A stretch of DNA of 64,000 nt, from the NCBI GenBank assembly GCA_027531395.1, contig JAPZRO010000001.1:124001-188000 (forward strand). Direction: 5' to 3'. A program made the position numbers and the translations under genes. Source of the stretch: Porphyrobacter sp. Its GTDB lineage: Bacteria; Pseudomonadota; Alphaproteobacteria; Sphingomonadales; Sphingomonadaceae. Below, piece after piece: positions 12,881 to 52,050 of this stretch (positions are counted from its first letter, which is position 1; each line of letters begins with the position of its first letter). The notes below the pieces were generated by a model that worked only from the letters and a program-made list of their open reading frames with translations, ran no database searches and had not been told where the DNA came from.

Positions 12881-13699
12881 ATGGTGAACGAGATCAAGGC
12901 GACCGCGCTGGTGATGGCGGGCAAGCGTTCGGGCGTGCTCGATCCGCTGGCCGAACGTGCGGGTGTTTCGCAAAAGGCGGTGGTGCCGGTCAACGGCGTG
13001 CCGATGATCGAGCGGGTGGTGGCACAGGTCGCCGCCTGCCCCGAGGTCGGCGAAATCCGCGTGGTGGCGCATGACGAGGGCGAGATCGCGAACCTCCCCA
13101 CCGTCGCCGCGCTGATCGCCGAAGGCCGCCTCACAATGATCGAAGGCCGCTTCAACATCGTGGACTCTGTCTTCGCAGGCGCCGAGGGCGCGGATTTCCC
13201 GCTGCTGATCACCACCGCCGACAACTGCCTGCTCACCCCAGAAGGCTACAGCGAATTCATCGCCAAGTGCCTTGCCGAGGATGCGGGCGGCGCGGCGGCG
13301 CTGGCGCGGCGCGAGGATGTGCAGGCGGCTGATCCCATCGGCCAGAAGCGCTTCTACGAGTTCCGCGACGGGGCCTATTCCAACTGCAACACCTACTGGC
13401 TCGGCAGCGCCAAGGCGCTCTCGGCGGCGGAGATCATGCGCGAGGGCGGGCAGTTCATCAAATACCCGCAGCGCATCATCAAGGCCTTCGGTCTGATCAA
13501 CCTGATCCGCTTCCGCATGGGCTGGGGCTCGAAGGAAAAGCTCTTCGCGCAGATCTCGCGCCGCTTCGGGTTCAAGCTGGTGCCGGTGGTGCTGTCCGAC
13601 GGGCATTTCGCCATCGACGTAGACAACGAGCGCACCTTCAACGTGACCGAGAAGATCCTGAAGGCGCGCGAAGGCGACCGCACGGGGGCCGCGGCCTGA
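12881..13699 (+). CDS. NTP transferase domain protein (MobA-like nucleotidyltransferase)
   Basis: ATALVMAGKRSGVLDPLAERAGVSQKAVVPVNGVPMIERV N-terminal nucleotidyltransferase motif. Confidence 0.75.
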   Translation: MVNEIKATALVMAGKRSGVLDPLAERAGVSQKAVVPVNGVPMIERVVAQVAACPEVGEIRVVAHDEGEIANLPTVAALIAEGRLTMIEGRFNIVDSVFAGAEGADFPLLITTADNCLLTPEGYSEFIAKCLAEDAGGAAALARREDVQAADPIGQKRFYEFRDGAYSNCNTYWLGSAKALSAAEIMREGGQFIKYPQRIIKAFGLINLIRFRMGWGSKEKLFAQISRRFGFKLVPVVLSDGHFAIDVDNERTFNVTEKILKAREGDRTGAAA

Positions 13700-13727
13700 C
13701 CCGGCCGGTGGCCTTGCGGGAATTGCG

Positions 13728-15044: not shown

Positions 15045-16600
15045 CCTTCGTAAGCCAGCTTCGGCTTTCTCGCCGCCGCAGTCTCGTCGAGCCTCCGCCG
15101 GGGCGAGTAGTAGGGCGCCTGCTTCAGCGCCTCGTCCCCTGCCAGCGCCCGCTCGACCACGGCGCGGAAGGCGGTGATGAACTGGTCGATCGCCGCCTTG
15201 CTCTCGGTCTCGGTCGGCTCGACCAGCATCGCGCCGTGGACCACCAGCGGGAAGTAGACCGTCATCGGGTGATAGCCCTCGTCGATCAGGCCCTTCGCCA
15301 CATCGAGGGTGGAAAGCCCATTGGTGAAGTCCTTGTCGCCGAACAGCGCCTCATGCATGCACGGCCCGCTGGCGCCGAAGGGGGCGTGGAGAATGTCCTC
15401 CATGCTGCGCAGGATGTAGTTGGCGTTGAGCACCGCGTCCTCGGCCACCTGCTTGAGGCCGTCCGCGCCGTGGCTGAGGATATAGGTCAGCGCGCGGGTG
15501 AACATGCCCATCTGCCCGTGGAAGGCGGTCATCCGGCCGAAGCTTGGGCCCCGCTCCTCGCGGTTCTCTTCCTCGACGAGGTAGAAGGTCCCGCCTTCAT
15601 CCTTGCGCACGAAAGGCAGCGGCGCGAAGGGTGCGAGCGCTTCGGACAGCACCACCGGCCCCGAACCCGGACCGCCGCCGCCATGCGGGGTGGAGAAGGT
15701 CTTGTGCAGGTTGATGTGCATCGCATCGACGCCGAGGTCGCCCGGGCGCACCTTGCCGACGATGGCGTTGAAGTTTGCCCCGTCGCAATAGACATAGCCG
15801 CCCGCCGCGTGGACGGCATCGGCGATCTCGCGGAAGTCCTTCTCGAACAGACCGCAGGTGTTGGGGTTGGTGATCATCACCGCCGCCACGTCCGGCCCGA
15901 GGCGAGCCTTCAGTGCGGCGACATCGACCCGGCCCTCGGGAGTCGCGGGGATATCCTCCACGCGGTAATTGGCGAAAGCGGCGGTGGCGGGGTTGGTGCC
16001 GTGGGCGCTTTCGGGCACCAGCACCACCTCGCGCGCGTCGCCGCGGGCTTCGTGCGCGGCGCGGATCGCGAGGATCCCGCACAGCTCGCCATGCGCGCCG
16101 GCCTTGGGGCTCATCGCCACCGCGGGCATGCCGGTCAGCTTGCACAGCCATTCGCCCAGCTGCGAGATGACTTCGAGCGCCCCCTGCACCGCGTTCTGGG
16201 GCGCGAGCGGGTGGATATCGGCAAAGCCGGGCAGCCGCGCGACCTTCTCGTTGAGGCGCGGGTTGTGCTTCATGGTGCAGCTGCCGAGCGGGAAGAACCC
16301 GAGGTCGATCCCGTAGTTCTGGCGGCTGAGGCGGGTGTAGTGGCGCACCGTCTCGGGCTCGGTCAGGCCGACGAGGCCGATCGCTTCGCTGCGAGCCAGA
16401 CCGCCGAGGCGGCTCGGCGCGTTCGCGTCCACCGGCGGCAGATCCACCCCGGTCACATCGGCACGGCCGATCTCGAACAGCAGCGGCTCTTCCAGCATCA
16501 GCGCGCGGTTGCCGGTGGTGGTGACGGGGCCGCTCATGAAGCCGTTCTCGGCGACCTGCATCTCGGGCTTCCAGCCGGACTGGTTGGGGGCGTTCATCAC
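15041..16600 (-). CDS. gcvPB: Glycine dehydrogenase (decarboxylating) subunit 2
   Basis: [40 protein letters not shown]. Confidence 0.95.
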
Positions 16601-17970
16601 ACGGTCTCCTTGATGCTGGCTTCAAGCTCGCGGGCGAGCGCCTCGATATCTTCCTCGGTGGTGGTCTCGGTCACGGCGACGAGCAGCGCGTGCTCCAGCG
16701 CCTTGACCCCCGGGTAAAGCCGCCCGAGCGACACCCCGCCCAGCACGCCGCGATCCGCCAGATCGCGCACGATCTGGCGCGCCGGCTTGCCGCCGAGCAG
16801 CAGGGTGAATTCGTTGAAGAAGGCCGTGTTGAGCACTTCCACGCCCGGCACCTGCGCCAGCCGGTCGGCGGCGAGGCAGGCGAGGCGGTGGTTCTCGGCG
16901 GCGAGTTCGCGCAGGCCCCGCTCGCCCAGCAGGGTCATGTGGACCGAGAAGGCCAGCGCGCACAGGCCGGAATTGGTGCAGATGTTGCTGGTCGCCTTCT
17001 CGCGGCGGATGTGCTGCTCGCGGGTCGAGAGGGTGAGCACGAAGCCGCGCTTGCCCTCGGCATCGACCGTTTCCCCGCACAGCCGGCCCGGCATCTGGCG
17101 CACGTGCTTGGGATCGCGCACCGCGAACAGGCCGAGGTACGGCCCGCCGAATTGCAGGCCGACGCCGAGCGACTGCCCCTCGCCCACCACGATGTCCGCG
17201 CCCATCTCGCCCGGCGAGCGGATCGCGCCCAGTGCCACGGGCTCGGTGTTCACCACCACCAGCAGCGCGCCCTTGGCATGGGCGGCGTCGGCCACCGGGG
17301 TCAGGTCGCTGATGCGGCCGAGGATGTCGGGATATTGCACCACGACGCAGGCGGTGTCCTCGTCGATGCGGGCGATCAGCCCGTCGAGATCGGGCTCGGG
17401 CGTGATCGCGGGCTGCGCGTCGGCGATCTCGTCACCGGTGAAGTGCGCCATGGTCTTGACCACCTGCGCATAGTGCGGGTGCAGCGCGCCCGAGAGCACC
17501 GCGCGCTTGCGGCGGGTGACGCGGGTCGCCATCGCCACCGCCTCCCAGCACGCGGTCGAGCCGTCGTAGAGCGAGGCATTGGCCACCGCGCAGCCATAGA
17601 GCCGCGCGACCTGCGTCTGGAACTCGAACAGGACCTGCAACGTGCCTTGCGCGATTTCCGGCTGATAAGGGGTGTAGGCGGTGAGGAACTCGCCGCGCTG
17701 GATGATGGTGTCGACGCTGGCCGGAACGTGGTGGCGATAGGCCCCCGCGCCGAGGAAGAAAGGCACATCGCCCGCCACCAGGTTCTTCGCCGCCAGCGCC
17801 TTCATGTGGCGCTCCACCGCCATCTCGCTGGCGTGCATCGGGAGCCCGTGGATCGGGCCATCGAGGCGGGCGACTTCGGGCACATCGACGAACAGGTCAT
17901 CGACCGACGCGGCGCCGATTTTCGCCAGCATCGCCTGCCGGTCGGTATCGGTGAGGGGGAGGTAGCGCAT
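16597..17970 (-). CDS. gcvPA: Glycine dehydrogenase (decarboxylating) subunit 1
   Basis: Start set at [63 protein letters not shown]. Confidence 0.95.
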
Positions 17971-18004
17971 GGGGGAGGGTTTCCGTGGCTGGTGGGTGAA
18001 AGGG

Positions 18005-18796
18005 TCAGGTGCTGAGTTGCGCCAGATCGGCGAGCGCCCCGGCGAAACGCGCGGGGCCGGTGTGGGTGGTGCGCATCCACGGCGCGGCCCAGACGCGGAA
18101 ACCCGCGTCGCGCGCGCGATGGCAGAAAGCGTAATCGTCGGACAGAAGATGCCCGGTCTCCGCATCGAACATCGGCTGGAACAGCGCGTGGAGATACTCG
18201 CCCAGTCCGTTCTCGCCGCGATCCTGCGGGTCGACCGGGTAGCGCAGCTCCGGATGGCGCTCGCACAGGGTTTCGATCACGTCGCGGCGGATCAGCATCA
18301 GGCCGGTGCCGATGCGCTTGAGTTCGAGCGGCTGGTCGAGCCGCACGCCCGCCGCCGGATCGAGCGCGTCGAGCGCGAACAGGCCGGAATAGCGCTCGAG
18401 CTCGGCCGGATTGCCCTGCGCCAGCCCCTTGGCGGCCGCCGCGGCGACCAGCGTCCAGTTGACCCGCCGCTTGGGGCAGGGCGCGCCGATCACCGCCAGC
18501 CGCGCGTCGGTCTGCACCAGCGCCAGCAGATCGAGCACCTGTTCGGGCACGAAGCCGATATCGGCGTCGAGAAACATGAGGTGCGTCGCATCCGATTGCA
18601 GGAAGGCGCCCGCCAGCATGTTGCGCGCCCGGTTGATCGAGGCGTTGTTGCTGAGAAACGCGAAACGGCACTCCACCCCGCGCTTCTCGGCCAGACCCGT
18701 CAGCCCGATCACGCCGCGCAGATAATCGACCTCGGCCCCGCCATAGAGCGGGGTGGCGACCATCAGGCGGACGGGCGAGGCGGGCGGGTTCGTCAC
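18005..18796 (-). CDS. Glycosyltransferase-like protein (predicted GT-A fold) inside the gcv operon
   Basis: [71 protein letters not shown] overlap with the gcvH stop. Confidence 0.7.
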
Positions 18797-23122: not shown

Positions 23123-25738
<2,616 letters not shown>

Positions 25739-25758
25739 TTATGGTCTCTCAAAGGGGA

Positions 25759-26802
25759 TCAGGCGGCCACAAAGGCCTCGAGCCCTGCCAGTCGCATCGC
25801 CGGTTCGGGATGCGGCACCTTGCGCGGCTCGCTGTTCGCCACCGCCTGCGCGATCGCGGCGATGTGATCGGGAGTCGAGCCGCAGCATCCGCCGAGCAGG
25901 TTGACCTGCCCGTGCGCGGCCCAGTCGGCCACCAGCCCGGCGGTGGTCTCGGGCGCCTCGTCATACTGGCCGAGCTCGTTGGGCAGGCCGGCATTGGGGT
26001 AGATCAGCAGCAGCGTGTCGGCGATCTGCGAGAGCACCTTAACGTGCGGGCGCAGCTGCTCCGCGCCAAAGCTGCAATTGAGGCCAATGGTGAGCGGCTT
26101 CGCGTGGCGCACCGCATACCAGAAGGCCTCGACCGTGTGGCCCGAGAGGTTACGGCCCGACAGGTCGGTGAGCGTCATCGAGATCATCAGCGGGATGTCG
26201 CGCCCGCTTTCGCGCTCGAGCTGCTTGACCGCCATGATCCCGGCCTTGGCGTTGAGCGTATCGAACACGGTTTCGATCAGGATGAAGTCCACCCCGCCCT
26301 CGACCAGCGCGGCGGCCTGTTCCTTATAGACCGCGACCAGCTCGTCGAAGTCGATCTCGCGGAAGCCGGGGTCTTCGACATCGGGGCTCAGGGACAGCGT
26401 CTTGTTGGTCGGCCCGATCGCGCCCGCGACGAAGCGGGGCTTGCCGTCCCTGGCAGCATATTCGTCCGCCAGCTTGCGGGCGATCTGGCCCGAAGCTACG
26501 TTGATTGCGCGCACCAAGTCTTCCGCCTTGTAGTCAGCTTGGCTGATGCGGTTGGCGGAGAAGGTGTTGGTGCTCACCACGTCCGATCCCGCATCGAGAT
26601 AGGCGCGGGTGATATCCGCGATCACATCCGGCCGGGTCAGGGCGAGGATGTCGTTGTTGCCCTTCTGGTCGGCCGGCAGGCCGAGCGTGCCGGCGTAATC
26701 GGCCTCGCTCAAGCGACGCTCCTGGATCTGCGTCCCGAAGGCGCCGTCGAAGATCAGCACGCGCTTGGCTGCCTCGGCGAGGAGTTGCTGGCGCGCGCTC
26801 AT
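25759..26802 (-). CDS. Homocysteine S-methyltransferase (N-terminal portion of split MetH)
   Basis: Start set at MSARQQLLAEAAKRVLIFDGAFGTQIQ; VNLLGGCCGSTPDHI zinc-cysteine motif. Confidence 0.93.
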   Translation of the reverse strand: MSARQQLLAEAAKRVLIFDGAFGTQIQERRLSEADYAGTLGLPADQKGNNDILALTRPDVIADITRAYLDAGSDVVSTNTFSANRISQADYKAEDLVRAINVASGQIARKLADEYAARDGKPRFVAGAIGPTNKTLSLSPDVEDPGFREIDFDELVAVYKEQAAALVEGGVDFILIETVFDTLNAKAGIMAVKQLERESGRDIPLMISMTLTDLSGRNLSGHTVEAFWYAVRHAKPLTIGLNCSFGAEQLRPHVKVLSQIADTLLLIYPNAGLPNELGQYDEAPETTAGLVADWAAHGQVNLLGGCCGSTPDHIAAIAQAVANSEPRKVPHPEPAMRLAGLEAFVAA

Positions 26803-27728
26803 GCGGCTTCTCCGACGGGACGCTTCCCGAGCAGGTGACAGATCGCATAGGCGAGCTCGGGGCGGTTCAGGGTGTAGAAGTGGAAATCGCGCACCCCGCC
26901 TGCATAGAGCCGGCGGCACAGCTCCGCGGCGACCGTGGCGGCGACCAGCTGGCGCGCGGCGGGCATTTCGTCGAGGCCTTCGAACAAGCCGTCCATCCAC
27001 GCCGGGATCGCCGCTCCGCAGGCCGCAGCGAACTTGCGCGCCTGCGCGACGTTTGTGACGGGCAGGATGCCGGGCAGGATCGGGGCGTCGATGCCAGCCG
27101 CCGCGCATTGATCGCGGAAGCGGAAGAAGGTCTCCGCCGAGAAGAAGAACTGGCTGATCGCGCGGGTCGCCCCGGCGTCGAGCTTGCGCTTCAGGTTGTC
27201 GATGTCCGCCTGCGCCGAGGCCGCATCGGGGTGCGTCTCGGGATAGGCGGCGACGCTGATTTCGAACGGCGCGATGGCCTTGAGGCCCGCGACCAGCTCG
27301 GCAGCGCTGGCATAGCCTTCGGGGTGCGGGGTGAAGGGCGCGCCGGGCTCGCCCGCGTCACCGCGCAGCGCGACGATATGGCGCACGCCGGCTTCCCAAT
27401 AGTGCTCGGCGACCTCGCGGATTTCCGCCTTGGAGGCGGCGACGCAGGTGAGGTGCGCGGCCGCCGGCAGCTTGGCTTCGGCAATGATCCGCGCGACCGT
27501 GGCATGGGTGCGCTCGCGGGTCGAACCGCCCGCGCCATAGGTGACCGAGACGAAGCTGGGCGCGAGCGGCTTCAGCTGCGTCACCGCGTCCCACAGCTGG
27601 GCTTCCATCTTCTCGCTCTTGGGCGGGAAGAACTCGAAGCTCACCGCAACATCGCCGGGCAAGCCGGAGAACAGCGGGGCATCGGTCGCGGTGCGGTATT
27701 CCTGGAGCTGGCTCAGGGTCGGGGTCAT
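26799..27728 (-). CDS. metF: Methylenetetrahydrofolate reductase [NAD(P)H]
   Basis: SFEFFPPKSEKMEAQLWDAV, SVTYGAGGSTRERTHATV, DAGATRAISQFFF. Confidence 0.95.
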   Translation of the reverse strand: MTPTLSQLQEYRTATDAPLFSGLPGDVAVSFEFFPPKSEKMEAQLWDAVTQLKPLAPSFVSVTYGAGGSTRERTHATVARIIAEAKLPAAAHLTCVAASKAEIREVAEHYWEAGVRHIVALRGDAGEPGAPFTPHPEGYASAAELVAGLKAIAPFEISVAAYPETHPDAASAQADIDNLKRKLDAGATRAISQFFFSAETFFRFRDQCAAAGIDAPILPGILPVTNVAQARKFAAACGAAIPAWMDGLFEGLDEMPAARQLVAATVAAELCRRLYAGGVRDFHFYTLNRPELAYAICHLLGKRPVGEAA

Positions 27729-36957: not shown

Positions 36958-38177
36958 AGCGGAACCATGTCGTATACGCTCGTCAAGGAGGCGATCAGGC
37001 CGTAAACGATAAGCCCGACAAAAAGCGAAACCACAACCACTACGGTTTGCTCAAGCACCCCGGTTGTACGCTTCAGGCTCTCTCGAAGTCCCTCTTCCGT
37101 GTCGATTGCGATGCGCCTGAACATGTCGGCCAGAAGCCCCGATTCCTCGCCCGCCCGCACGAGGCTCAACTGCGCCTCATCCAGCAGCTCGATCGCAGCG
37201 ATCGCGTCTGCCACCCGGCTGCCGACTCGCAATTCGCGCGATGCATTGGTTGCCCGCTCCTGCAACGTCGTATCCCTGAGGCCATCTGCAGCCAGCCCCA
37301 TGGCATCGACAATGGATATGCGTGCGAGCAACGCAAAGGTCATGATCCGACACCACCTTTCGCGTTCTCTTTGCAGCGCCAACCGGGCCAGCAAAGGGAT
37401 GTGGCGGATTGCAAGGCGGCGGAGCCAGGCATTATCGCCACGCAGGCCTGTGACAGTTAGGAAAAGGAGCACGATGATCGGGGCGATCAACGCCAGCCCA
37501 AAACTCTGCTGCGCAACGTCTCCGAGCCAGAAAATCAGTCGTGACATCGTATCAAGCTGATCGCGACGTTCGCCGATCAGCGTTGCGAAGCGGGGTATTA
37601 CAAACAGCATCATGATCATGCCGACCAGCAACCCGGCAATCGACAAGAAGGTCGGATAGACAAGCGCGCTCTTGATGGTTGCTGCGATGCGTTCCTCTGC
37701 CTCCAGCTGTTCGACGGCGTGGCCGATTGTTTCTGCGAGGCAGCCGCCGGCCTCTCCGGCATTCACCAGTGCGAGGATTTCGGACGGCATTCCTGGAATC
37801 GCGGTGCTGAGGCATGCGCCCAACGGCTTTCCGCTACGCAGTTCAGTCATAGCAACGTCGATTGCCGAACGCAGTGCTGGCGTGGCTGCCCCGGCCTGCA
37901 TCGCCATAAGGGCTTGCATCAGATCGACGCGTGCCTGCAGCATCAATCCCAACTGTCGCAGCAGAGCAATCTGATCGCGGCGGGATGTTGCTTTGCTGCT
38001 CGCAGTGTCGCCCGCACCACAGCGCTCCAGCTTAACAACGGTCAGACGCTCACGGGTGACCCGGGCAAAGGCTTGGGTCGCGTCGTCGGCTTGCACCGTA
38101 CCGCGCTGCCGCCGCCCGTTGCTGTCAATCGCGACATAAAGATAATAGCTTGCATCGTCACCAGCCATTTCAGTCAC
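36954..38177 (-). CDS. gspF: Type II secretion inner-membrane platform protein GspF
   Basis: YLYVAIDSNGRRQRGTVQADD; VNAGEAGGCLAETI, VRAGEESGLLADMFRRIA; three TM segments. Confidence 0.9.
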   Translation of the reverse strand: MTEMAGDDASYYLYVAIDSNGRRQRGTVQADDATQAFARVTRERLTVVKLERCGAGDTASSKATSRRDQIALLRQLGLMLQARVDLMQALMAMQAGAATPALRSAIDVAMTELRSGKPLGACLSTAIPGMPSEILALVNAGEAGGCLAETIGHAVEQLEAEERIAATIKSALVYPTFLSIAGLLVGMIMMLFVIPRFATLIGERRDQLDTMSRLIFWLGDVAQQSFGLALIAPIIVLLFLTVTGLRGDNAWLRRLAIRHIPLLARLALQRERERWCRIMTFALLARISIVDAMGLAADGLRDTTLQERATNASRELRVGSRVADAIAAIELLDEAQLSLVRAGEESGLLADMFRRIAIDTEEGLRESLKRTTGVLEQTVVVVVSLFVGLIVYGLIASLTSVYDMVPL

Positions 38178-39702
38178 CCAGCACGCGCTGGATTTCGGCG
38201 GCGTCGGTCAACCCGGCGTCCGCTTTGTCGCGGGCGTCATCGATCATCGGCAGATAGCTTGTCTGCCTGGCAATTTGTTCAAGCTCACTCTGCGGGGCGT
38301 TACGCCGGATCGCGTCGCGCAACAGCGGATCCACGCACATAAGTTCATAGACGCCAATCCGTCCGCTGTAGGCGTTGTCGGCGCAGCGCCGCCGCAACAA
38401 GCGTTGCGCGATGATCCCGCTGATCGCCTCTGCCAGCAGATATCCTTCAATGCCAAGGTCAACCATGCGCGTTATGGACGCTGCCGCTGAGCGGGTGTGT
38501 AGGGTGGAAATCACTAAATGCCCTGTCATCGCTGCGCGAGTTGCCATTTGTGCCGTTTCGGAATCGCGAATTTCGCCCACAAATATGACGTCAGGGTCCT
38601 GACGCAGCATCGATCGCAGGCCAGTGGCGAAATCCAGCCCGATATCCTGCCGCACATTGACCTGGATCACCCCCGGCAGATCGATTTCGACAGGGTCCTC
38701 GATGGTGATTATTTTGCGTGAACCGTCATTCAACTGCTCGAGCAATTTGTAAACCGTTGTAGTTTTCCCCGATCCGGTGGGGCCGGCGATCAACAGCAGA
38801 CCGGCTGGCTGGCGGATCAGATCGCCCAGTTGCTGGGCCATCGCCGGCGCCATACCCAGTTCGGCGAGCGAGGGCAGGTCAACGGTGCGGCCCAGAAAGC
38901 GCAGTACGATCGATTCGCCCCAAACTCCTGGCAGGCATGACGCGCGGATATCGATGTCGCGACCGGCAATTCGAAGACCGTAACGGCCGTCCTGCGGCGT
39001 TCGCCGTTCAGCGATATCCATTCCGCACAAGAGCTTGATGCGTGAGGCGATGGCTGCAAAGCGGATCGCAGGAACGGTACGCCAAAGATTCAGCGTTCCA
39101 TCAATCCGCAAGCGGATCTGCATGTCCCCCTTGAAGGGTTCGATATGAATGTCGCTTGCCCGGCGGGCCATCGCTTCGGACAGCATTGCATTGATGAATT
39201 CGATTGCCGGCGCGTCTTCCGCCAATTCTTCTAACTTGCCGATGATGCCAGATGAAGGCTGGCTACTGCCGCCCTCCTCCAGATCGGCCAGAGCGGCGCG
39301 CAGCAGGCGCAGCGCAACCACAAAGCGGCGGTTAGGCGCAATGTCCCACTGCTCCATCGCCTCTTCGATCAGCGCGTTGCTACAGCTCGCAAGAGCGATG
39401 CAGGGACGATCAAGCGCATCGCGCCAGATCAAAACTTCCTGCTCTGCAAGCCAGTTCAGCGAAAACCGCAGGCTCTTCTGCGCAGCAAGGATCTGATCAC
39501 TTCCCGGCGCGACCGTCAGCAAGGGTAGGCCCATTGCCTCCGCCAATGCCTCGGCCAGCCGCTCGTCGCCGATAACGCCCAGACGGATCAATGCCGAAGC
39601 GATCGAGCCGCCGCCATGCCCTTGTAGCGCCCGAGCCTCGACAAGGTCAGTCTGCGAAATCAAGCCATCTGACTTAAGGAAGTCTAAATCACTAATGTAC
39701 AA
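38170..39702 (-). CDS. gspE: Type II secretion ATPase GspE
   Basis: IAGPTGSGKTTTVYKLLEQLN (Walker A), IITIEDPVEIDLPGVIQVNVRQDIGLDFATGLRSMLRQDPDVIFVGEIRDSETAQMATRAAMTGHLVISTLHT. Confidence 0.95.
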   Translation of the reverse strand: MYISDLDFLKSDGLISQTDLVEARALQGHGGGSIASALIRLGVIGDERLAEALAEAMGLPLLTVAPGSDQILAAQKSLRFSLNWLAEQEVLIWRDALDRPCIALASCSNALIEEAMEQWDIAPNRRFVVALRLLRAALADLEEGGSSQPSSGIIGKLEELAEDAPAIEFINAMLSEAMARRASDIHIEPFKGDMQIRLRIDGTLNLWRTVPAIRFAAIASRIKLLCGMDIAERRTPQDGRYGLRIAGRDIDIRASCLPGVWGESIVLRFLGRTVDLPSLAELGMAPAMAQQLGDLIRQPAGLLLIAGPTGSGKTTTVYKLLEQLNDGSRKIITIEDPVEIDLPGVIQVNVRQDIGLDFATGLRSMLRQDPDVIFVGEIRDSETAQMATRAAMTGHLVISTLHTRSAAASITRMVDLGIEGYLLAEAISGIIAQRLLRRRCADNAYSGRIGVYELMCVDPLLRDAIRRNAPQSELEQIARQTSYLPMIDDARDKADAGLTDAAEIQRVLGD

Positions 39703-42597: not shown

Positions 42598-43184
42598 TTG
42601 CCATCCACCTAACCCCACTTCTGGCTTGGCGTCCCGATGATCGGGAAAAGCGTCTGCTGCAGCTTCTGCTCGGCATTCTTCTTGCCGCTTGGCTCTATAT
42701 CTCCGCCGATACACGTCAAAATGCCGCGACGGACAATGCAGTCGCGCAAGCAAGATTGGCAAAAGCACGCAATCAGGTCGACCTGCTGTCGAACAACCAG
42801 TTGCCTGTCAGAATTGCAGCACAGAAAAAGCTGCTCGCGCAATCCGTGCTGGTCGACGCGACGCCTGCGATCAGCAAGATAAGGCTGCGTGGCGAAGTAC
42901 TGGATCTGTCCAGCAGAGCGGGCCTGATCGGGCCGGTCATCCTCGACAATCACACAGTTGACGCTCTACCCGAAGAAAAGAGCACCAAGCAAAGCTTCGC
43001 CGCGCTGACTGCAACTGTTGAGTTCGACTTTGACTGGTTAGGGCTGCTTCGCCTGCTTGAACAGGTCGAATACGACGGCCGCGGCTACTTCATCGACGGG
43101 TTCGAAGTACTTCAGGAGGGCGACAAACGTCGGATGCGCGTGACGTTCCGCGCGCTGCACAAAAAGCAGGCGGCAGAGACATGA
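42594..43184 (+). CDS. GspM/PilO-like protein
   Basis: N-terminal TM, coiled coil, ...FDWLGLLRLLEQVEYDGRGYFIDGFEVLQEGDKRRMRVTFRAL. Confidence 0.6.
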   Translation: MIAIHLTPLLAWRPDDREKRLLQLLLGILLAAWLYISADTRQNAATDNAVAQARLAKARNQVDLLSNNQLPVRIAAQKKLLAQSVLVDATPAISKIRLRGEVLDLSSRAGLIGPVILDNHTVDALPEEKSTKQSFAALTATVEFDFDWLGLLRLLEQVEYDGRGYFIDGFEVLQEGDKRRMRVTFRALHKKQAAET

Positions 43185-43894
43185 ACCGCGTACTGCTCAT
43201 CGCTGGCAGTGTGCTGCTGGCCGGGATCGCGTTTGCCGCTGGCCGGATCCTTGTGAACTCCACCGATGCAACAGATGTCTTGCAAGACGCGTTTGCTCCA
43301 GAGCCTCCCGACCTTGACGATCCTACTCTGAGAGCGAAAGCTGCCCGCGGCCAGCTGGCGGAACTCCCGCCAACGCTTTGGGTTGCCGCGCCGGTTAACG
43401 ATCCCGCATGGGGCGATGGCTTGGCGCTGACCAGCGATCTGACAGTTATGCCGGCAGTGCCCAGAAATGCTTCAGCCTCAGCACCTAAGCCACCCAAGTT
43501 AGATCCCGCGCCAAGCGCCGAACAGATTGCTGGACTGCTGTCACGAACCATCGCGGCGGTGAAGCGTAGCGATGGGGTTGCCAGCGTGATTGTGATCGAC
43601 AACGCCAGTGGCATTCGACGGACGCTGAAGGTGGGTGACCCCTATCGAGACGGCTGGCGCGTGGAACTCATCGATACGCAGTCGATAACCCTTGCACGCA
43701 GGTCCGCAAAAATCACCGTTCCTGTGGGGTTTGGTTTGCGCAGGCCCTTGCCGGCTACGACCTATATTCCACCTGCGGCGAACACTGGCAGTTCCGCCGG
43801 CAACCAATCGGCCAATTCTGTCGCTCCTCCGGCTTCCTCCCGGCCGCGCCGGCGCATCCCGCGCCCCGGCACCTCTGATGATCAAGAAGTATGA
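43181..43894 (+). CDS. GspC/PilP-like protein
   Basis: N-terminal TM; VIVIDNASGIRRTLKVGDPYRDGWRVELIDTQSITLARRSAKITVPVGFG homology-region style. Confidence 0.65.
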   Translation: MNRVLLIAGSVLLAGIAFAAGRILVNSTDATDVLQDAFAPEPPDLDDPTLRAKAARGQLAELPPTLWVAAPVNDPAWGDGLALTSDLTVMPAVPRNASASAPKPPKLDPAPSAEQIAGLLSRTIAAVKRSDGVASVIVIDNASGIRRTLKVGDPYRDGWRVELIDTQSITLARRSAKITVPVGFGLRRPLPATTYIPPAANTGSSAGNQSANSVAPPASSRPRRRIPRPGTSDDQEV

Positions 43895-46047
43895 TGCAAA
43901 TGCTGATGTCCAATACCGCGATTGTGGCGATTGCCATTGCGTCGTCTTCCGCGGATGTTCCGCCGCGCATTTCCGTTGAGCCGCTGAGGCTTTCGGATGA
44001 AGTATTGTCGTCGCCCGACGATACAGCTCAACCCCAGCCAATTGAGCAGATCGTTCAGCGCACAACAGTGTTGATCGATACGCCTGTGACGACGGAAGAC
44101 GATGCGCCGCTTAGCGATGCCGATCTCACGATGCTGGTGCCCGACAAGAATGTGGCAGCAAGCCTGCCCCCGCAACCGCTGGGCCAGTTTGCCGAAACTG
44201 TCCTTGGGGAGATATTGGGCGTGCCTTACATCATGGGCCCCGGTGTCGCACAAAGGCGCGATCTTGTGAGCATGAGCGGACCGCAGGAAATGTCTTCGCG
44301 GCAATTCCTGCGGCTCGCCGAGAAAGCGCTAAACCAATACGGTTTGGTGCTTGTTCACGAAGGCGGCGCGGTTCTAGTGCGCGAGGCGCCGGCCAGGACA
44401 GGGGCCCGACAACCAAACGCGGGCGTCACGAAGATCGTTGCACTCGGCAGTATCGCTGCAGACCCGGCTGCCGGCCTCGTTTCCGATATTATTGAAGGCC
44501 AAAGTGGGGTTGCGGTGCAATCTTTGCCCGATGCCAATGGTGTCATGCTGCAGGGCGACGAAGCCGAAGTGACCACTGCCAGCGGCCTTCTCGCCGGAAT
44601 TGACCAGCCACAATATGCCGGCGCGCGCGTTGCTCGGATTGCCCCGATACTGTGGAGTTCCGACGCGCTGGCGGAAAAACTGCGCGAAGTGCTTGCAAGT
44701 GAAGGTTATTTAATCGGATCTGCGGGCTCTGGGGGCACTAGTCTAGTGCACCTGTCGCGCCCCGATTGCCTGCTGCTTTTTTCCGATGATGTGCGGTTGT
44801 TCAACCGCGTCCTTTACTGGGTCGAACAGCTTGACTCGCTCGAAGGATCAGGCGGTGATCATGCCGGCTTTTTTGTCTATCAGGTGCGCAACACAACGGC
44901 TGCCGAACTGGGCAGTCTTGTCGGGCGCGCAAACGGCGGCGATGATGTCAACATTTATGCCTCGTCGCCGGGCCGGATCGACAATCCAGATCGCCGCAGC
45001 GACAACGGTCAACCGGCGTCAGGCATGGACCGGTCTAGCCTACCACAGGCGAACCCGGCCAGCGAGGACACCGGCGGCAAGATAATTGTCGACAATCCTG
45101 GCAATCGCATCCTTTTTCGCGGCACTCGGCGCGAGTATGCGCAGCTGCTGCGCCTGCTTAAGGACCTTGATGTCGCCCCCAAACAGGTGCTGGTCGAAAT
45201 CACCATCGCCGAAGTGACATTGACCGACGAAACGCGTTTCGGGATCGAATGGTTCCTTGATCGGCAATTATCGAACGGCTCGGTTCAGGCCAATACTACC
45301 GGCGGGCTTGAACGGGAGGCGGGCGGACTCGGCCTTACATTTGCAAGGGGCTTTTCGCAGATTTCGGTGGCCGCTGCCCTCAATGCGATTGCGACCAATC
45401 AGAATCTCAACATCATTTCCACGCCGCGGCTGCTCGCAAGGTCGGGCGGTGAGGCACAGATCCTTATCGGCAACGATGTGCCGATCATCACATCGCAACG
45501 CGCGGCAGATATCCAGTCAAATGGCGACACGGATATCCTTCAAACGGTGCAGTATCGCCAGACGGGGGTCATCCTAAACATCCGCCCGGTGGTGTTAAGC
45601 AACGACCGCATCGACATCGAAATTTTTCAGGAAGTGTCGAGCCAGCAGCCCAACGTTACCTCCGATATCGGCAGCCCGGTCATCAGCAACCGGTCGGTCA
45701 CGACTCGGCTCTCGCTACGCGAGGGCATGACGGCAGTGCTTGGCGGCATGATCCAAGACAGCATTTCCATGGGGCAACGCGGAGTGCCCTTATTGAAGGA
45801 TATCCCGCTTTTAGGGCGGGCATTCCGTGTCGACAGCGCGACAAAACGCAAGACCGAATTGCTGATCCTCGTGACACCCAAGGTGATCAGCGAAGACCAG
45901 ACGATGCAGAACATCGCATCCGAGTTCAGCCAATCAATCAACGAGCTGATGAATGGTCGCGGCCAAAAGGCCTTTACTCTGACCCCTTGGCTTCCGGGGC
46001 AGACGGTCCCCCTGCACCGATACTCGCGCTTCGAAGACAAAAATTAA
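43891..46047 (+). CDS. gspD: Type II secretion secretin GspD
   Basis: LLARSGGEAQILIGNDVPIIT, VILNIRPVVLSNDRIDIEIFQEVS, LREGMTAVLGGMIQDSISMGQRGVPLLKDIPLLGRAF. Confidence 0.95.
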   Translation: MMQMLMSNTAIVAIAIASSSADVPPRISVEPLRLSDEVLSSPDDTAQPQPIEQIVQRTTVLIDTPVTTEDDAPLSDADLTMLVPDKNVAASLPPQPLGQFAETVLGEILGVPYIMGPGVAQRRDLVSMSGPQEMSSRQFLRLAEKALNQYGLVLVHEGGAVLVREAPARTGARQPNAGVTKIVALGSIAADPAAGLVSDIIEGQSGVAVQSLPDANGVMLQGDEAEVTTASGLLAGIDQPQYAGARVARIAPILWSSDALAEKLREVLASEGYLIGSAGSGGTSLVHLSRPDCLLLFSDDVRLFNRVLYWVEQLDSLEGSGGDHAGFFVYQVRNTTAAELGSLVGRANGGDDVNIYASSPGRIDNPDRRSDNGQPASGMDRSSLPQANPASEDTGGKIIVDNPGNRILFRGTRREYAQLLRLLKDLDVAPKQVLVEITIAEVTLTDETRFGIEWFLDRQLSNGSVQANTTGGLEREAGGLGLTFARGFSQISVAAALNAIATNQNLNIISTPRLLARSGGEAQILIGNDVPIITSQRAADIQSNGDTDILQTVQYRQTGVILNIRPVVLSNDRIDIEIFQEVSSQQPNVTSDIGSPVISNRSVTTRLSLREGMTAVLGGMIQDSISMGQRGVPLLKDIPLLGRAFRVDSATKRKTELLILVTPKVISEDQTMQNIASEFSQSINELMNGRGQKAFTLTPWLPGQTVPLHRYSRFEDKN

Positions 46048-46059
46048 GAGCTGAACATC

Positions 46060-46548
46060 ATGCGTATTGTTATCGCCATTACAGGGACGATCCTACTGTG
46101 CGGCCTCGCCGTTGTCTCGCAATCCGCCGTTGGCAAGGGCCCGGCAGCGGTGCAGGCTGGCACTGCGTGGGCGACCCCGGCGGGGCGAGGTCAGGTCCTA
46201 GCAGCCGCCTACGTCTCTCTGCGCAATCGGGGCCGGACGCCCCAGACATTGTTAGGCGCGTCATCCAGTGTGGCAGCCGACGTGCAAATGCACAGTTCGG
46301 AAGTCAAAGGCGGCATAGCGCGCATGCGCCGGGTAGAGCGACTTACCGTGCCTGCCAGGGGTGAGCTGAAACTGACACCCGGCGGCCCCCACCTCATGCT
46401 CATGGGTTTGAATCGGCCATTGAAGGCAGGCGATACGATCACGGTTCATCTGCGGTTTGAAGGTGGCACCATTCTGGATGTGGCGGTGCCCGTCACCGAT
46501 ACGTCCGCAAAATCCGCAATGAAGGGAGATCCCCATGCAAATCACTGA
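46060..46548 (+). CDS. Copper chaperone PCu(A)C
   Basis: VQMHSSEVKGGIARMRRVERLTVPARGELKLTPGGPHLMLMGLNRPLKAGD (H-M...H-M copper motif). Confidence 0.9.
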   Translation: MRIVIAITGTILLCGLAVVSQSAVGKGPAAVQAGTAWATPAGRGQVLAAAYVSLRNRGRTPQTLLGASSSVAADVQMHSSEVKGGIARMRRVERLTVPARGELKLTPGGPHLMLMGLNRPLKAGDTITVHLRFEGGTILDVAVPVTDTSAKSAMKGDPHANH

Positions 46549-47152
46549 ACGCGCAACCAAAGTTATCCTTGCGGGCCTTGTCGTGTCTGCAATTTCAGGC
46601 GCTGCGTATCTGACTTATGCAGCGCCTGAAAAGAATGCGGCCATCACAGGAAAACCGGCGGCTGACCCGTCACTTGGGACTCCCGTCCAACTCAAGCTGA
46701 CCGATGCCGACGGCAAGTCGTTTGATCTTGCCTCGCTCAAGGGCAAACCGGTTGTAGTGTTTTTCGGCTTCACCCAATGCCCCGATTTCTGTCCGATGAC
46801 TATGCAAAAGCTGGCGAGCATGCGCGAACGGATTGGTACGCCGTTCAACGAGCTGCACGTCCTGTTTGTGTCGCTCGATCCCGAACGTGACACGCCTGGA
46901 ACGCTGAAAAGCTATTTCAGCGCCTTCCCGCTGCCTGTCACAGGCTTGACGGGCAGTGCTGCCGATATCGCTAGCGCGGCCAAGCAATTCGACGTGTTCT
47001 ATGAAACCGTCCGCTACTCCGAGACATATTATGCGATCGACCATACCGCATCGATCTTCCTGATCGATCGCGACGGCAAGCGCGCAGGCGAAATCGGCTT
47101 CGGAGCCGACGACGCGGAATTCCAGGCCAAGCTCGAGGCGCTCGTTGAATAA
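46535..47152 (+). CDS. SCO1/SenC family protein
   Basis: VVFFGFTQCPDFCPMTMQKLASM (CxxxC), YAIDHTASIFLIDRDGK. Confidence 0.93.
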   Translation: MQITERATKVILAGLVVSAISGAAYLTYAAPEKNAAITGKPAADPSLGTPVQLKLTDADGKSFDLASLKGKPVVVFFGFTQCPDFCPMTMQKLASMRERIGTPFNELHVLFVSLDPERDTPGTLKSYFSAFPLPVTGLTGSAADIASAAKQFDVFYETVRYSETYYAIDHTASIFLIDRDGKRAGEIGFGADDAEFQAKLEALVE

Positions 47153-47431
47153 TTTGGCCCTTCATTATTCAAAATAAAATTATCAAAATGTAATAATTTC
47201 AAATTTCAATGCGATTGCAGTATTCCTATCATGAAAATACAATAAAATTTGTATAGTTATTTTTTGTAATAGTAAAACTATCATGAAGTAAAATATTTCA
47301 AAAAAGAATATATTACATTCCGAAATGGAAAATTTCATTGTCCAAATTTGGAACACACCCATTCGGATATGTTGGCATTTTCTTAGCCATCCGTTTTGGC
47401 CCCGCATGCCCTTGAAGCGAGATCTGAAAAA

Positions 47432-48556
47432 ATGGATAGGCGTAAATTTTTGAAGGCTAGTGCCGTTGCGGTCGGGGCTGCTGCCCTTCCTGCGATGGCG
47501 ACCGCCCAAACGACCGGCGGCACGTTCGATCTCACGATCGAAGCCGTCGACTCCGAGATGATCGACGGCGTCTTCGTGTTCAGCCTGATGTTCTTTGATC
47601 GCAGCGAGGAAGGCCGCCCGATCCTGGAAGTGACCGAAGCCGATATTGTGACTATCAACGTCACCAATCTCGACACCCGGCCACACGGTTTTGGCATTCC
47701 CGGGATACCCGCTGCTTCTGTCGCGTCGATCCCGCCGGGCGGCTCGGCAACGGTGCGATTCACCGCGCCCGTCGGCGGTACCTATATGTATATCGACCCG
47801 ACGCTTGCGCCGCTTAACCGAATTCTCGGTCTCTACGGCGCGTTCATCGTCCATCCAAAGCTGGGCACGACGGCGGCCGGTTCGCCGACGCCCTATAGCC
47901 GGTCGACGCATACGCCGCAGGTTGCCGCTTTGTTCAACGCGCTGGGCGTGCACAAGCGCTTTCCGGGCAACAAATGGGTGCCCCGCGACGTAGAGCGAGA
48001 CAAATTGTGGTTGTTCTCACAGGTTGATCCGTTGATCGCGGCGCGTGTTGATGCCGGAGAGGTTATCCCGCCCGCAAGCGTGGTGCCGTCCTTCCTTCCG
48101 CGCTATTTCATGATCAACGGGCTCAGCGGATATGACACCGCTCCGCATAAGATCGATGCCTCACTTGACTGGTCAAAGGGCTCCGGGCGCATCATGCCGC
48201 ATGGCCGCGAAGGCCAGCCCACGCTGATCCGCAACATGAACGCAGGCCTGTGCACGCACAGCCCGCACATCCATGGCAACCATATTTTCAAACTGTCGGA
48301 CACCCGCGCAGACGGCACCGTGGTTCTGAACACCAGTTGTTATGAGCTGGATGCCTGGCCGATGGAGCCGATGGCGCGCCGCGACGTTCTGTTGCCGTTC
48401 GAAAAGCCGGGGGATGCCGTCGTATGGCCGCCAAAGGAAGAACCCTTCCCGATGCGCTATGTCATGCACTGCCATACCGAAATGTCTCAGACAGCCGGCG
48501 GGGGCAACTATCCCCAAGGCATGGTCACCCACTGGGAAATGACTGGCCCTCTCTGA
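47432..48556 (+). CDS. Multicopper oxidase domain protein with Tat-like signal (carries C-terminal copper motifs)
   Basis: MDRRKFLKASAVAVGAAALPAMATAQ; HSPHIHGNHIF and MHCHTEMSQTAGGGNYPQGM. Confidence 0.85.
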   Translation: MDRRKFLKASAVAVGAAALPAMATAQTTGGTFDLTIEAVDSEMIDGVFVFSLMFFDRSEEGRPILEVTEADIVTINVTNLDTRPHGFGIPGIPAASVASIPPGGSATVRFTAPVGGTYMYIDPTLAPLNRILGLYGAFIVHPKLGTTAAGSPTPYSRSTHTPQVAALFNALGVHKRFPGNKWVPRDVERDKLWLFSQVDPLIAARVDAGEVIPPASVVPSFLPRYFMINGLSGYDTAPHKIDASLDWSKGSGRIMPHGREGQPTLIRNMNAGLCTHSPHIHGNHIFKLSDTRADGTVVLNTSCYELDAWPMEPMARRDVLLPFEKPGDAVVWPPKEEPFPMRYVMHCHTEMSQTAGGGNYPQGMVTHWEMTGPL

Positions 48557-48598
48557 TCGCTTCAGCGACCCCCATCTTATTGTTTCAGGAGCTTTGCC

Positions 48599-49627
48599 AT
48601 GCAAGCGGCAGATTGGACAAAAACAGGCGTTAAGGGTGAAGTCACTTACTCCACCTTTGGCTGCAACCCATTTCAGGAATCAAACTTCCCGACGCCCGAC
48701 CGGGTCGCGCCCGACGTAAATGTCGAACGACACATGGATGTCAGCCTCGACCTTCCGACACCGGACGGCCAGAAAATTCGCGTCTGGACCTTCACCGATC
48801 CCCTGGCACCGACAGTAGCAGGACGCGCGCCCATGCATCCTGCGCCTTTGATGCGATTCCGTGAGGGCCAGATCGTGCACAGCACGCTCGATCCGAAGAA
48901 GAATGCACATACGATTCACCATCACGGCATCGAACCGACCACGGTGAATGATGGCGTCGGTCACGTCTCGTTCGAGGTCAATGCACGCTATACTTACCAA
49001 TTTCGGCCATCACGGGCTGGCACATTTTTCTATCATTGCCACCGCAACACCGCGCTTCATTTCGAAATGGGCATGTTCGGGCCGATGATTGTCGATCCGC
49101 CCGAAGGTCCGGGCACTTTGTTCAGCGGTGGACCCAAATATGATGTCGAGCGCCTTCTTGTGCTCGACGATATGGATCCGCGTTGGCACACTTTGGAACA
49201 TGACGCCGGCATGTGCGGTCTCGATGTCGGTCTCAATCGTTTCGACCCGAAATACTTCCTCGCCAATGGCGTGTTCAACAACCGCACCACCACTGATCCG
49301 CGTGTTGTAATCAATGCAAAGCTGGGCCAGACGATTCTGATCCGCCTGCTAAATGCGAGCTATTCGGTTCTGGAAACGACGATCGGCCTGCCGGGCGTCT
49401 GCCATTCAATGGATGGTTGTTCCCTAGGTACTGAGCCGTGGTCTTCTCCGTTGCCGTTACCAGCAAACCGGCCGTTCACTATGTCGACGGCGCAGCGCCG
49501 TGACATCATCATCCGCCCGACCGCGCGCGGCACTTTCCCGGTGCGCTTCCGCTTCCTGCACTGGGTCAATGGCAAGGTTCAGGACAACGGTCGCGGTATC
49601 GTTGACACAAGGATTATCGTATCGTGA
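48599..49627 (+). CDS. Multicopper oxidase domain protein, no signal peptide (carries N-terminal copper motifs)
   Basis: AHTIHHHGIEPTTVNDGVGH and GTFFYHCHRNTALHFEMGMFGPMIVDPP. Confidence 0.85.
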   Translation: MQAADWTKTGVKGEVTYSTFGCNPFQESNFPTPDRVAPDVNVERHMDVSLDLPTPDGQKIRVWTFTDPLAPTVAGRAPMHPAPLMRFREGQIVHSTLDPKKNAHTIHHHGIEPTTVNDGVGHVSFEVNARYTYQFRPSRAGTFFYHCHRNTALHFEMGMFGPMIVDPPEGPGTLFSGGPKYDVERLLVLDDMDPRWHTLEHDAGMCGLDVGLNRFDPKYFLANGVFNNRTTTDPRVVINAKLGQTILIRLLNASYSVLETTIGLPGVCHSMDGCSLGTEPWSSPLPLPANRPFTMSTAQRRDIIIRPTARGTFPVRFRFLHWVNGKVQDNGRGIVDTRIIVS

Positions 49628-50313
49628 CGATCCCGGCAATTTTCCTCGCAAGTGGCTTCACGCTTACCGGCGACACAAGCCTTGAGACAGCACAACTGGT
49701 AACCGCCGACGATCGCGTACGTGATTACCATTCAGGTCATCTTCCGCCGAATCCTGACCAGTTGGGCGGGATGTTCAACTTTTCGGATTTGGCTGGAAAG
49801 CCGGTCGGTGATGCCGATTTCAAGGGAAAGTGGACACTGCTTTATTTCGGTTATGCCCGCTGCACGGACAGTTGCCCGATGGCGATCCCGATGATCGCTA
49901 CGGCCGCCAAGGAATTGAGAAAGTCCGGCATCAAGACCAATGCTGTCTTTGTCGATATCGAAGCACCTGCCGTCGGCTATGTCCGGCGTCGGGCGAACAA
50001 AGCCGCTGCCCCCGATGGCCATGTGCATTTGATCGACCGTGATGCGGCGCTGCGTTCGTTGCAGCAGAGCTTTGGTTCGGAATTGCAGATCCTCACCGGA
50101 ACGCGGGGCCAGCTATCGGCTGCCACTGCGGCCTTCCGAGTAGCACGCGAACATACGCCTCCGCGGGCGGGTGAGCGCGGCCACAGCATCAATCATAGCT
50201 CGCTGGTCTATATTCTTGATCCGCGTGCGAAGGTGGCAGGCTATGGTTATCACACGTCGACGTCGGAGATCCTGATCGAAACAGTGCGAAGGCTGAAAAA
50301 GGCAAAGTCATGA
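49624..50313 (+). CDS. SCO1/SenC family protein (second copy)
   Basis: LLYFGYARCTDSCPMAIPMIATAAKEL (CxxxC), GHSINHSSLVYILDPRAK. Confidence 0.88.
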   Translation: MTIPAIFLASGFTLTGDTSLETAQLVTADDRVRDYHSGHLPPNPDQLGGMFNFSDLAGKPVGDADFKGKWTLLYFGYARCTDSCPMAIPMIATAAKELRKSGIKTNAVFVDIEAPAVGYVRRRANKAAAPDGHVHLIDRDAALRSLQQSFGSELQILTGTRGQLSAATAAFRVAREHTPPRAGERGHSINHSSLVYILDPRAKVAGYGYHTSTSEILIETVRRLKKAKS

Positions 50314-50819
50314 AGGCAGCAGCCTTGATGGCGCTAGCGGCAGCGCAGAGCTTAGCATTACCCCTAGCGGCCCAGACGTTCGACCGTGCAGGCCGACTTA
50401 TTGTCGCGCCCGAAGAACGCAATGTCGCCGCGGCGCAGGTTGCGATTGCGCAGTCACACCTTTTCGGCAGCATGCTTGTTTCTTACCGCTTGGCCCGGCC
50501 GGGTGTTGCCCGCGTCGCCGTGGCCACGCGGAAGGAATTGAAGATTTTCGAAATTGACTCCGAGAATTTCGAGGCGCGGTTGATCCAGAGCGTTGCAACG
50601 ACCACCGCCTTGCCAAAGGGCACGCTGGTGTGCCGCAGCTATGCCCCGATCGATGCAATTTTATCGGCCGGCAAACGGCATTTCCCGAATACCGAACTGG
50701 AGGTTCTGCCCCCACACCGCCCGGGGATGGCCTGGCGCGTACGTGTCAAGGGACGACTCTTTGCGGTGGCGTTCGACAAAAAGGGCGTAGCGCGTTTCGG
50801 CCCATCATCTTTCCGATAG
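50310..50819 (+). CDS. Secreted hypothetical protein within the oxidase operon
   Basis: Signal peptide MKAAALMALAAAQSLALPLAAQ; ATGA overlap with the upstream SCO gene. Confidence 0.65.
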   Translation: MKAAALMALAAAQSLALPLAAQTFDRAGRLIVAPEERNVAAAQVAIAQSHLFGSMLVSYRLARPGVARVAVATRKELKIFEIDSENFEARLIQSVATTTALPKGTLVCRSYAPIDAILSAGKRHFPNTELEVLPPHRPGMAWRVRVKGRLFAVAFDKKGVARFGPSSFR

Positions 50820-50825
50820 CGCGCT

Positions 50826-51317
50826 ATGGAAAGCTTGGTCACCGCAACAAGCCAAGTGCTGCTGATTTCCAGTGCATTGGTGTTGATGGGGATCATGGCT
50901 TGGAGCGATGCGCGCCATTTTCTCCTGCCACTGGTTCCCAATATCATCTTTCTAGTTGCCGGACTGATCGTCGGCCACCTAGCTTTTGGCATATCCAAAG
51001 GTGGCGCGCTAATCGGCGCCGGTGCAGGCTATCTTGGACTTTCCGCTGTCGCTGCGACCTATCGAAATCTGCGCGGCCGTGAAGGCATGGGCGGCGGGGA
51101 TCCAATTCTGCTGGGCGGGATCGGTGCTTGGCTAGGTTGGCAAGTGCTGCCAACAATACTCCTGGTCGCAGCTTTATTGGGCTTGGCTTTTGCCGTGCTG
51201 CAACGACCTTTCGGGCCACGGCAGACCAATTGGCAGGATCAGCGTATTCCGCTGGGCTCTTGCCTCATCTGTGCTGCAGTTATTTCCGGCGCGACGATGC
51301 TTATCGCCGGCAAGTGA
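50826..51317 (+). CDS. Short A24 family prepilin peptidase
   Basis: AWSDARHFLLPLVPN and GREGMGGGDPILLGGIGAWLGW aspartates; multi-TM. Confidence 0.8.
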   Translation: MESLVTATSQVLLISSALVLMGIMAWSDARHFLLPLVPNIIFLVAGLIVGHLAFGISKGGALIGAGAGYLGLSAVAATYRNLRGREGMGGGDPILLGGIGAWLGWQVLPTILLVAALLGLAFAVLQRPFGPRQTNWQDQRIPLGSCLICAAVISGATMLIAGK

Positions 51318-51456
51318 CGAGCTGTCCGCGAGCGCCCTGACGACCTCGATATGGCCGTCGAAATCGGCCTGCGGCGTTGTTCGAGTACTTACTCGTCGTC
51401 CTGTGTTCGAGGCACGTAACCACACCCACATGCCCGAGCTTCGCTCATCAAACAGA

Positions 51457-52050
51457 TTAGATTTCCTCGGGCGACCAGGCCTCACGGATGGCTTCAATTG
51501 GTTTCGAGAGCACCTCGTAGGCTAGAGCGCCAGCAGCGGCGGCAATAGCACAAAAGACAACAACGCTCGCAATGTAAGTCATTCGGGATGATGCAATGCG
51601 GCTCTGATCGTAGGCAGAAAACGAGCCTGCTTTATCTGCTCTGCGCCAAGTGGCAATGCTATCCTTTCCGCTTACCTTAGCAGCGTCATTAGGCATCCCT
51701 GTTGACCGAATGCCAGTCAGACTCGGAAAATCAATGTTATCCTGCGTGCGAACGCCGAACGTCTGATTGCCTGACCAAATAACTCTACCAACTATGATAA
51801 TGCCGCCTTTTCGAATCTCCACATAGTGACCGCGTGGCGGCGGGCTGCTGGAAGAGGCAAGCAATCCTCGCTGCGAGACGTTAAGGATCACCACTGGTGA
51901 CTCGTTGCCGCCAGCATTCATCGAAGCAGAGACAATAATCCGTTGGCGTCGGTCGCGAGGATTTTTCATTTTCACAGCTGCGACAATGAAGCGACTTTTC
52001 CGCCTAGGCGCTATACCCATTAAGGATGTGCGCTTAACAAGACTAGGCAA
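51457..52050 (-). CDS. PilZ-domain protein with C-terminal TM
   Basis: RDRRQRIIVSASMNAGGNESPVVILNVSQRGLLASSSSPPPRGHYVEIRKGGIIIVGRVIWSGNQTFGVRTQDNID. Confidence 0.75.
   Translation of the reverse strand: MPSLVKRTSLMGIAPRRKSRFIVAAVKMKNPRDRRQRIIVSASMNAGGNESPVVILNVSQRGLLASSSSPPPRGHYVEIRKGGIIIVGRVIWSGNQTFGVRTQDNIDFPSLTGIRSTGMPNDAAKVSGKDSIATWRRADKAGSFSAYDQSRIASSRMTYIASVVVFCAIAAAAGALAYEVLSKPIEAIREAWSPEEI

Follow-up and report, generated by a model that had tools for sequence, protein, structure and literature searches.

What do two adjacent genes encode when each specifies a cupredoxin protein that is missing part of a multicopper oxidase active site? The question is raised by a pair of genes, here denoted A and B, in a 64,000-nucleotide stretch of Porphyrobacter sp. 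DNA (the window). Multicopper oxidases are described as two-, three- or six-domain proteins whose trinuclear copper site forms either within a chain or between like protomers, and the two-domain oxidases have been described as trimers that share sites between the protomers (PMC13151041). The sequence-only reading of this locus inferred that A and B pair with each other, with the trinuclear site at their interface. The features of the two genes are the following.

47432-48556, + strand: chain A, two-cupredoxin protein, 374 aa (open reading frame, Pfam, family conservation)
47432-47509, + strand: TAT signal region of A, MDRRKFLKASAVAVGAAALPAMATAQ (PF10518, TIGR01409)
48257-48283, + strand: HSPHIHGNH, A residues 276-284, with trinuclear ligands H279 and H281 (87/87 each)
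48467-48475, + strand: HCH, A residues 346-348, with trinuclear ligands H346 and H348 (86/86 each)
48599-49627, + strand: chain B, two-domain protein, 342 aa (open reading frame, Pfam, N-termini of relatives)
48908-48925, + strand: HTIHHH, B residues 104-109, with type 1 His104 and trinuclear His107 and His109 (81/81 each)
49034-49075, + strand: HCHRNTALHFEMGM, B residues 146-159 (H146, C147, H148 and H154, 81/81)

The motifs that had been read in A (RPHGFGI, YMYIDPT, HSPHIHGNH and HCHTEM) and in B (IHHHGI and YHCHRNTALHFEMGM) are present as described; the three-domain oxidase that served as the yardstick for them has to be replaced, the right comparison being the two-domain type C multicopper oxidase. 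Conservation of the ligands was counted over 87 A and 81 B relatives, using the sequences that cover each position. All eight trinuclear histidines, four on A (H279, H281, H346, H348) and four on B (H107, H109, H146, H148), are invariant across these relatives, which argues that the motif pattern is not due to chance. In the HCHRNTALHFEMGM motif of B, His146 and His148 are assigned to the trinuclear site, Cys147 and His154 to the type 1 site, and Met159 is the axial ligand; this last position is M in 56 and L in 25 of the 81 relatives. A complete type 1 site (H104, C147, H154, M/L159) is found only in domain 1 of B. In A, the position of the type 1 histidine is occupied by a serine (Ser352) in 85 of 86 relatives and Cys347 is not strictly kept (present in 74 of 86, lost in 12), so that A has no type 1 copper. 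Domain 1 of A is devoid of copper ligands, as is domain 2 of B; the ligands of the trinuclear site are split evenly between domain 2 of A and domain 1 of B. The eight-histidine set of the multicopper oxidase superfamily, made up of HxH and HCH/HxH pairs in two domains, is satisfied only by A and B jointly, and the characteristic link of the type 1 site to the trinuclear site via HCH is present in B in 81 of 81 relatives.

Other copper proteins have to be considered given the database matches. Chain A scores above the Pfam cut-off for Cu-oxidase_3 and TAT_signal and slightly below it for Cu-oxidase_2; B matches Cu-oxidase_3 with 48 bits and Cu-oxidase_2 with 32 bits. The top database matches of A are the first domains of CuNIR proteins, and CuNIR is also matched by B, compatible with a CuNIR-like pair in which B carries type 1 copper and a mononuclear type 2 site lies at the interface. 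This arrangement is, however, very improbable: the HxHG and HCH of B and the two HxH motifs of A amount to an eight-histidine trinuclear set that goes beyond the need of a mononuclear site, and the top profile match of B is the two-domain oxidase 3g5w. Copper nitrite reductase proper was rejected, with TIGR02376 scores of 28 and 38 bits against a cut-off of 296 and the wrong ligand set. A three-domain laccase or a CopA/CueO-type enzyme was likewise rejected, the locus encoding two two-domain chains instead and TIGR01480 reaching 57.6 bits against a cut-off of 479.

Alignment with known multicopper oxidases, suggested earlier as a check on the pairing, fits it well: domain 1 of B matches the blue copper oxidase 3g5w of N. 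europaea motif for motif, and both A and B align to P0011 (L104:1339-2676), a single-chain two-domain oxidase, over 305 and 266 columns, respectively. Type C two-domain oxidases have type 1 copper in domain 1 and a trinuclear site to which one chain gives its domain 1 and the neighbouring chain its domain 2 (PMC13151041), a plan that the A-B pair, as inferred, would share. The presence of two cupredoxin domains per chain with type 1 copper in domain 1 only holds for B and for the A-B pair as a whole; A has no type 1 site. Unlike in type C enzymes, where all trinuclear ligands come from one gene, the A-B ligands are divided over two gene products, each with the other domain stripped of ligands; furthermore, the known type C proteins are described as trimers of one chain, and an A:B unit is no simple fit to a three-fold ring. 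P0011, which has MHDHTE where A has MHCHTE, differs from the pair in being one unsplit gene with every ligand on one chain and in having no visible TAT motif. Compared with P0011, 87 of 87 A sequences lack the HxH loop of domain 1 and 76 of 87 have aspartate in place of the type 1 cysteine, and no conserved histidine is found in B at the positions of the domain-2 HxH and HDH motifs. The A profile can be aligned to the B profile along 256 columns spanning both domains (E 1.9e-24). The simplest history, inferred from homology without a rooted tree, would be that a two-domain (type C) oxidase was duplicated in tandem and that the two copies then lost copper ligands reciprocally; given such reciprocal loss, a working site could form only between A and B.

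A scan of the genome collection with the A profile yielded 80 loci which, with plasmid loci and loci from the organism's own family added, gave 87 A sequences; A was the seed of the scan, hence a bias toward recovering A. The loci come from alphaproteobacteria, deltaproteobacterial lines, Nitrospirae, Chloroflexi, Brocadia, Actinomycetota and others. In 81 of the 87, B directly follows A on the same strand; the six loci without B comprise five that stop at contig ends and a single orphan on the Paenarthrobacter aurescens plasmid pTC1, where A (L010:7326-8906) lies near mntH and no B was detected. The same plasmid also carries a fragment of a second A (81-419). At the other extreme, the genome of Skermanella aerolata KACC 11604 contains at least seven A-B loci (L039, L040, L044-L047, L080).

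The layout in the window itself invites the suspicion that a single four-domain oxidase gene has been broken by a stop codon or a sequencing error: the open reading frames of A and B share strand and frame and are separated only by a TGA stop plus 42 nt, that is, by one TGA and 14 codons. Against this stand the CAGGAG ribosome-binding site in the gap and the ATG of B that follows it, and the two-gene layout is conserved across phyla, with A and B as separate genes in different frames and with varied gaps in most relatives. A broken gene can thus scarcely be entertained for this genome, and a stop-codon or pseudogene reading is ruled out by the relatives that have A and B in different frames. 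Actual joined forms do occur, namely an 858-aa frame that represents a natural A-B fusion (L056), another fusion in a single long continuous frame (L092) and an A-B run with a frame-shift (L011); in Arthrobacter FW305-BF8, A continues into the N-terminal region of B before a frame change.

These fusions also bear on the possibility that A and B are separate homo-oligomers which share only an operon, with B as a type 1 electron-transfer protein, A as a copper-binding or structural protein, and no shared trinuclear site. Each of the two is, after all, a complete two-domain protein of the trimerising kind, and co-transcription alone does not prove contact. However, without a trinuclear site there is no reason for the 100% retention of four histidines per chain, A-B fusions exist, and the two proteins are found together in the same genomes. 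In the organism's own family, A is present in three of 201 genomes and B in the same three, as established by both A-seeded and B-seeded searches (chance of such overlap about 7.5e-7, or 5e-5 with the genome of the window excluded). Class-wide profile searches found, beyond this genome, only ordinary superfamily members, so co-occurrence could not be gauged at that level. The distances within A and within B are correlated (r = 0.80, 70 pairs), but this was not used as evidence because it is explained by shared species history. The heteromeric reading is further strengthened by a distant pair on a Ralstonia plasmid (L012:4362-7482), which has GspD and a pseudopilin gene as neighbours and in which the gene order is reversed, the B-like gene coming before the A-like one: the B-like protein keeps HTVHFH and HCH and the A-like protein keeps HPFHEH and HSH, without the cysteine, so that even at such a distance the ligands are divided in the same way.

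The models also speak against independent homo-oligomers, the linked chains being predicted with confidence as a single body. For A and B of the window, joined by reading through the TGA stop of A, AlphaFold2 gave pLDDT 90.9 and pTM 0.91 (68 aligned rows), and for L056, the only natural fusion folded, pLDDT 83.9 and pTM 0.87; models of this kind, made from one continuous chain, carry less weight than a multimer prediction would. Taken with the ligand pattern and the fusions, this leaves only a slim chance for the homo-oligomers. In a Foldseek search with the full A-B chain, the top solved matches were the six-domain oxidases MnxG and ceruloplasmin as well as clotting factors, at a TM of about 0.5; these matches fit a chain of four cupredoxin domains whose order is related, in an arrangement that is similar but not identical to that of the six-domain oxidases. 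In the bacterial six-domain forms, the trinuclear site lies between domains 2 and 3 (PMC3600357), as it would between domain 2 of A and domain 1 of B, but A-B consists of four domains on two chains and has its type 1 site in the third domain rather than the second. Mnx (MnxEFG) of Bacillus PL-12 is likewise a multicopper oxidase that acts as a hetero-complex, although MnxG is its only multicopper oxidase subunit.

Altogether, A and B most probably make up, as its two subunits, a single obligate heteromeric multicopper oxidase with a shared copper site, the contact between the chains, the activity and the stoichiometry being inferred. The pairing proposed at the outset is thereby supported along six lines, namely reciprocal ligand loss, tandem linkage across phyla, fusions, identical phyletic matches, end-to-end homology and the linked-chain models, with site geometry and copper content still inferential. 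This high confidence applies solely to the heteromeric shared copper site and does not extend to the substrate. No heteromeric, split or two-subunit multicopper oxidase was found in the literature searched, which left most subscription papers out of scope.

In the mechanism that can be envisaged for such a complex, the type 1 copper in domain 1 of B would be the entry point for electrons from the substrate, a function inferred for ligands that are themselves conserved. Electrons would then pass via Cys147 and the flanking His146/His148 to the trinuclear cluster, predicted to be held by the four histidines of B domain 1 and the four of A domain 2, where O2 would be reduced to water, by inference from the superfamily. 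The N-terminus of A, MDRRKFLK, is a TAT signal that is shared by its relatives (77 of 77 for R3 and 77 of 78 for R4). B has no hydrophobic N-terminus and no signal peptide, and nearly all of its relatives lack a TAT signal as well. Given the TAT signal on A, the A-B complex is probably exported pre-folded, with B as a hitchhiker. Such hitchhiking is not universal, however, because the N-terminus is Ala-rich, and a possible signal, in a few B proteins (L031, L042, L049, L051) and, by eye, both Ralstonia chains carry apparent Sec-type signals.

The neighbourhood of the pair includes genes for copper chaperones and type II secretion:

38170-39702, - strand: type II secretion ATPase GspE (PF00437, 372 bits; G000:C15:162185-163225)
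43181-43894, + strand: GspC-like protein (weak NCBIfam GspC match)
43891-46047, + strand: type II secretion secretin GspD (PF00263, E 8.5e-43; TIGR02517, 280 bits, below cut-off)
46060-46548, + strand: PCu(A)C-type periplasmic copper chaperone (PF04314, E 1e-32)
46535-47152, + strand: SCO1/SenC-type copper chaperone upstream of A (PF02630, E 3e-41)
47153-47431, + strand: AT-rich intergenic region 5' of A (29% GC against 64% for the window)
49624-50313, + strand: SCO1/SenC-type copper chaperone, with a 4-nt overlap between its start and the B stop (PF02630, E 1e-23)
50826-51317, + strand: prepilin peptidase (PF01478, E 2.8e-17)

The 279-nt AT-rich region upstream of A is probably regulatory, and the corresponding region is likewise AT-rich in close relatives; no Rfam match was found in 46000-51500, and a promoter scan gave a result no better than shuffled sequences. 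A 169-aa open reading frame (50310-50819) between the second SCO gene and the prepilin peptidase has no Pfam or NCBIfam match. Elsewhere in the window, methionine synthase (23123-27108) and glycine dehydrogenase (15041-18165) are each encoded as two adjacent open reading frames, as judged by reading only.

From this gene context, the SCO and PCuAC chaperones would probably load the complex with copper once it has reached the periplasm. Neighbours were counted only in loci flanked by 2.5 kb on each side: SCO comes directly after B in 29 of the 32 such alphaproteobacterial loci and in none of 26 others, and GspD is found within 7 kb of A-B in 16 of 32 and none of 26, respectively. The secretin of the window is one of two secretin matches in its genome. 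Of the two further A-B genomes in the family set, one encodes a close relative of it (52%); the remaining matches are 29-33% identical. In the alphaproteobacterial branch, the complex would then probably leave the cell through the type II system encoded next to it, again an inference from gene context. GspE matches in L023 and L026 were dropped as evidence of type II secretion because L026 also encodes TrbI and its match resembles a VirB11-type conjugation ATPase. In two unrelated loci outside the alphaproteobacteria, proteins with CHRD domains are encoded near A-B (L055:4930-6942, L068:10615-11205).

With respect to the substrate, A-B-SCO is followed by the gene of a large RTX-repeat protein of the animal haem peroxidase type in 11 loci (L018-L023, L026, L030, L035-L037); this linkage, like that with type II secretion, is confined to alphaproteobacteria. 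One of these peroxidases (L026:11352-15146) is mopA of Erythrobacter SD-21, directly downstream of A-B-SCO, the identity being established by exact matches of the published primers, which bound 969 codons (PMC6247904); on the SD-21 contig, A, B and SCO occupy 13636-16388 and mopA starts at 17879. MopA is a haem peroxidase with no sequence kinship to A-B and could be their functional partner by inference only. The genome of the window encodes a 2764-aa peroxidase of this type, also with RTX repeats (L130:489-8783; G000:C15:334488-342782), 48% identical over about 820 aa and located on the same contig as A-B, some 150 kb away, next to type I secretion genes (HlyD, ABC transporter and outer-membrane efflux protein). 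A gene for a LuxR-type response regulator adjoins this peroxidase gene. A MopA-type peroxidase was found in all eight A-B genomes tested, and frames of at least 1500 aa with a peroxidase domain occur in four of the 201 family genomes, three of which are the A-B genomes (chance 3e-6). On two Micrococcaceae plasmids, A is encoded near an Nramp transporter, which carries a manganese uptake annotation on one of the two. In P. putida GB-1, Mn(III) is oxidised by mutants that retain only MnxG or McoA and not by a mutant with only MopA (PMC5906577). The adjacency and co-occurrence of MopA, the Nramp neighbours and the P. putida GB-1 results on Mn(III) are the reasons why manganese was ranked first for the alphaproteobacterial branch. 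Extracellular manganese oxidation is accordingly put forward as the leading role there, unproven and resting on gene context alone, with confidence that falls somewhat short of even; the complex might act on manganese alongside the MopA-type haem peroxidase.

The same heteromeric oxidase could instead act on copper(I), iron(II) or phenols, in which case the linkage with MopA and the type II system would reflect shared secretion or regulation. The copper chaperones that adjoin A-B, and the distant relatives in the Brocadia, Chloroflexi and Geobacter lines that have no MopA or type II neighbours, are compatible with such substrates, whereas the MopA-type gene adjoining in 11 loci and the Nramp transporter near A on the two Micrococcaceae plasmids speak against them; the case for one or another of these substrates appears evenly balanced. 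The most inclusive proposal, a widespread class of multicopper oxidases with an interface-only trinuclear centre that arose by duplication and reciprocal loss and that forms, with MopA, an extracellular manganese-oxidising module in alphaproteobacteria, can be offered only tentatively and with considerable reservation.

If the two-gene site is indeed obligate, the A-B oxidase would show clearly, in nature, how an active centre can be split by duplication and complementary loss, with single-chain relatives and naturally fused forms available for comparison with the divided site, and the enzyme would be overlooked if only one of the genes were expressed. The presence of A-B beside mopA in the manganese oxidiser Erythrobacter SD-21 makes it testable whether strains with MopA also use a copper oxidase; if so, A-B might, for example, handle the step from Mn(III) to Mn(IV) that MopA does not.
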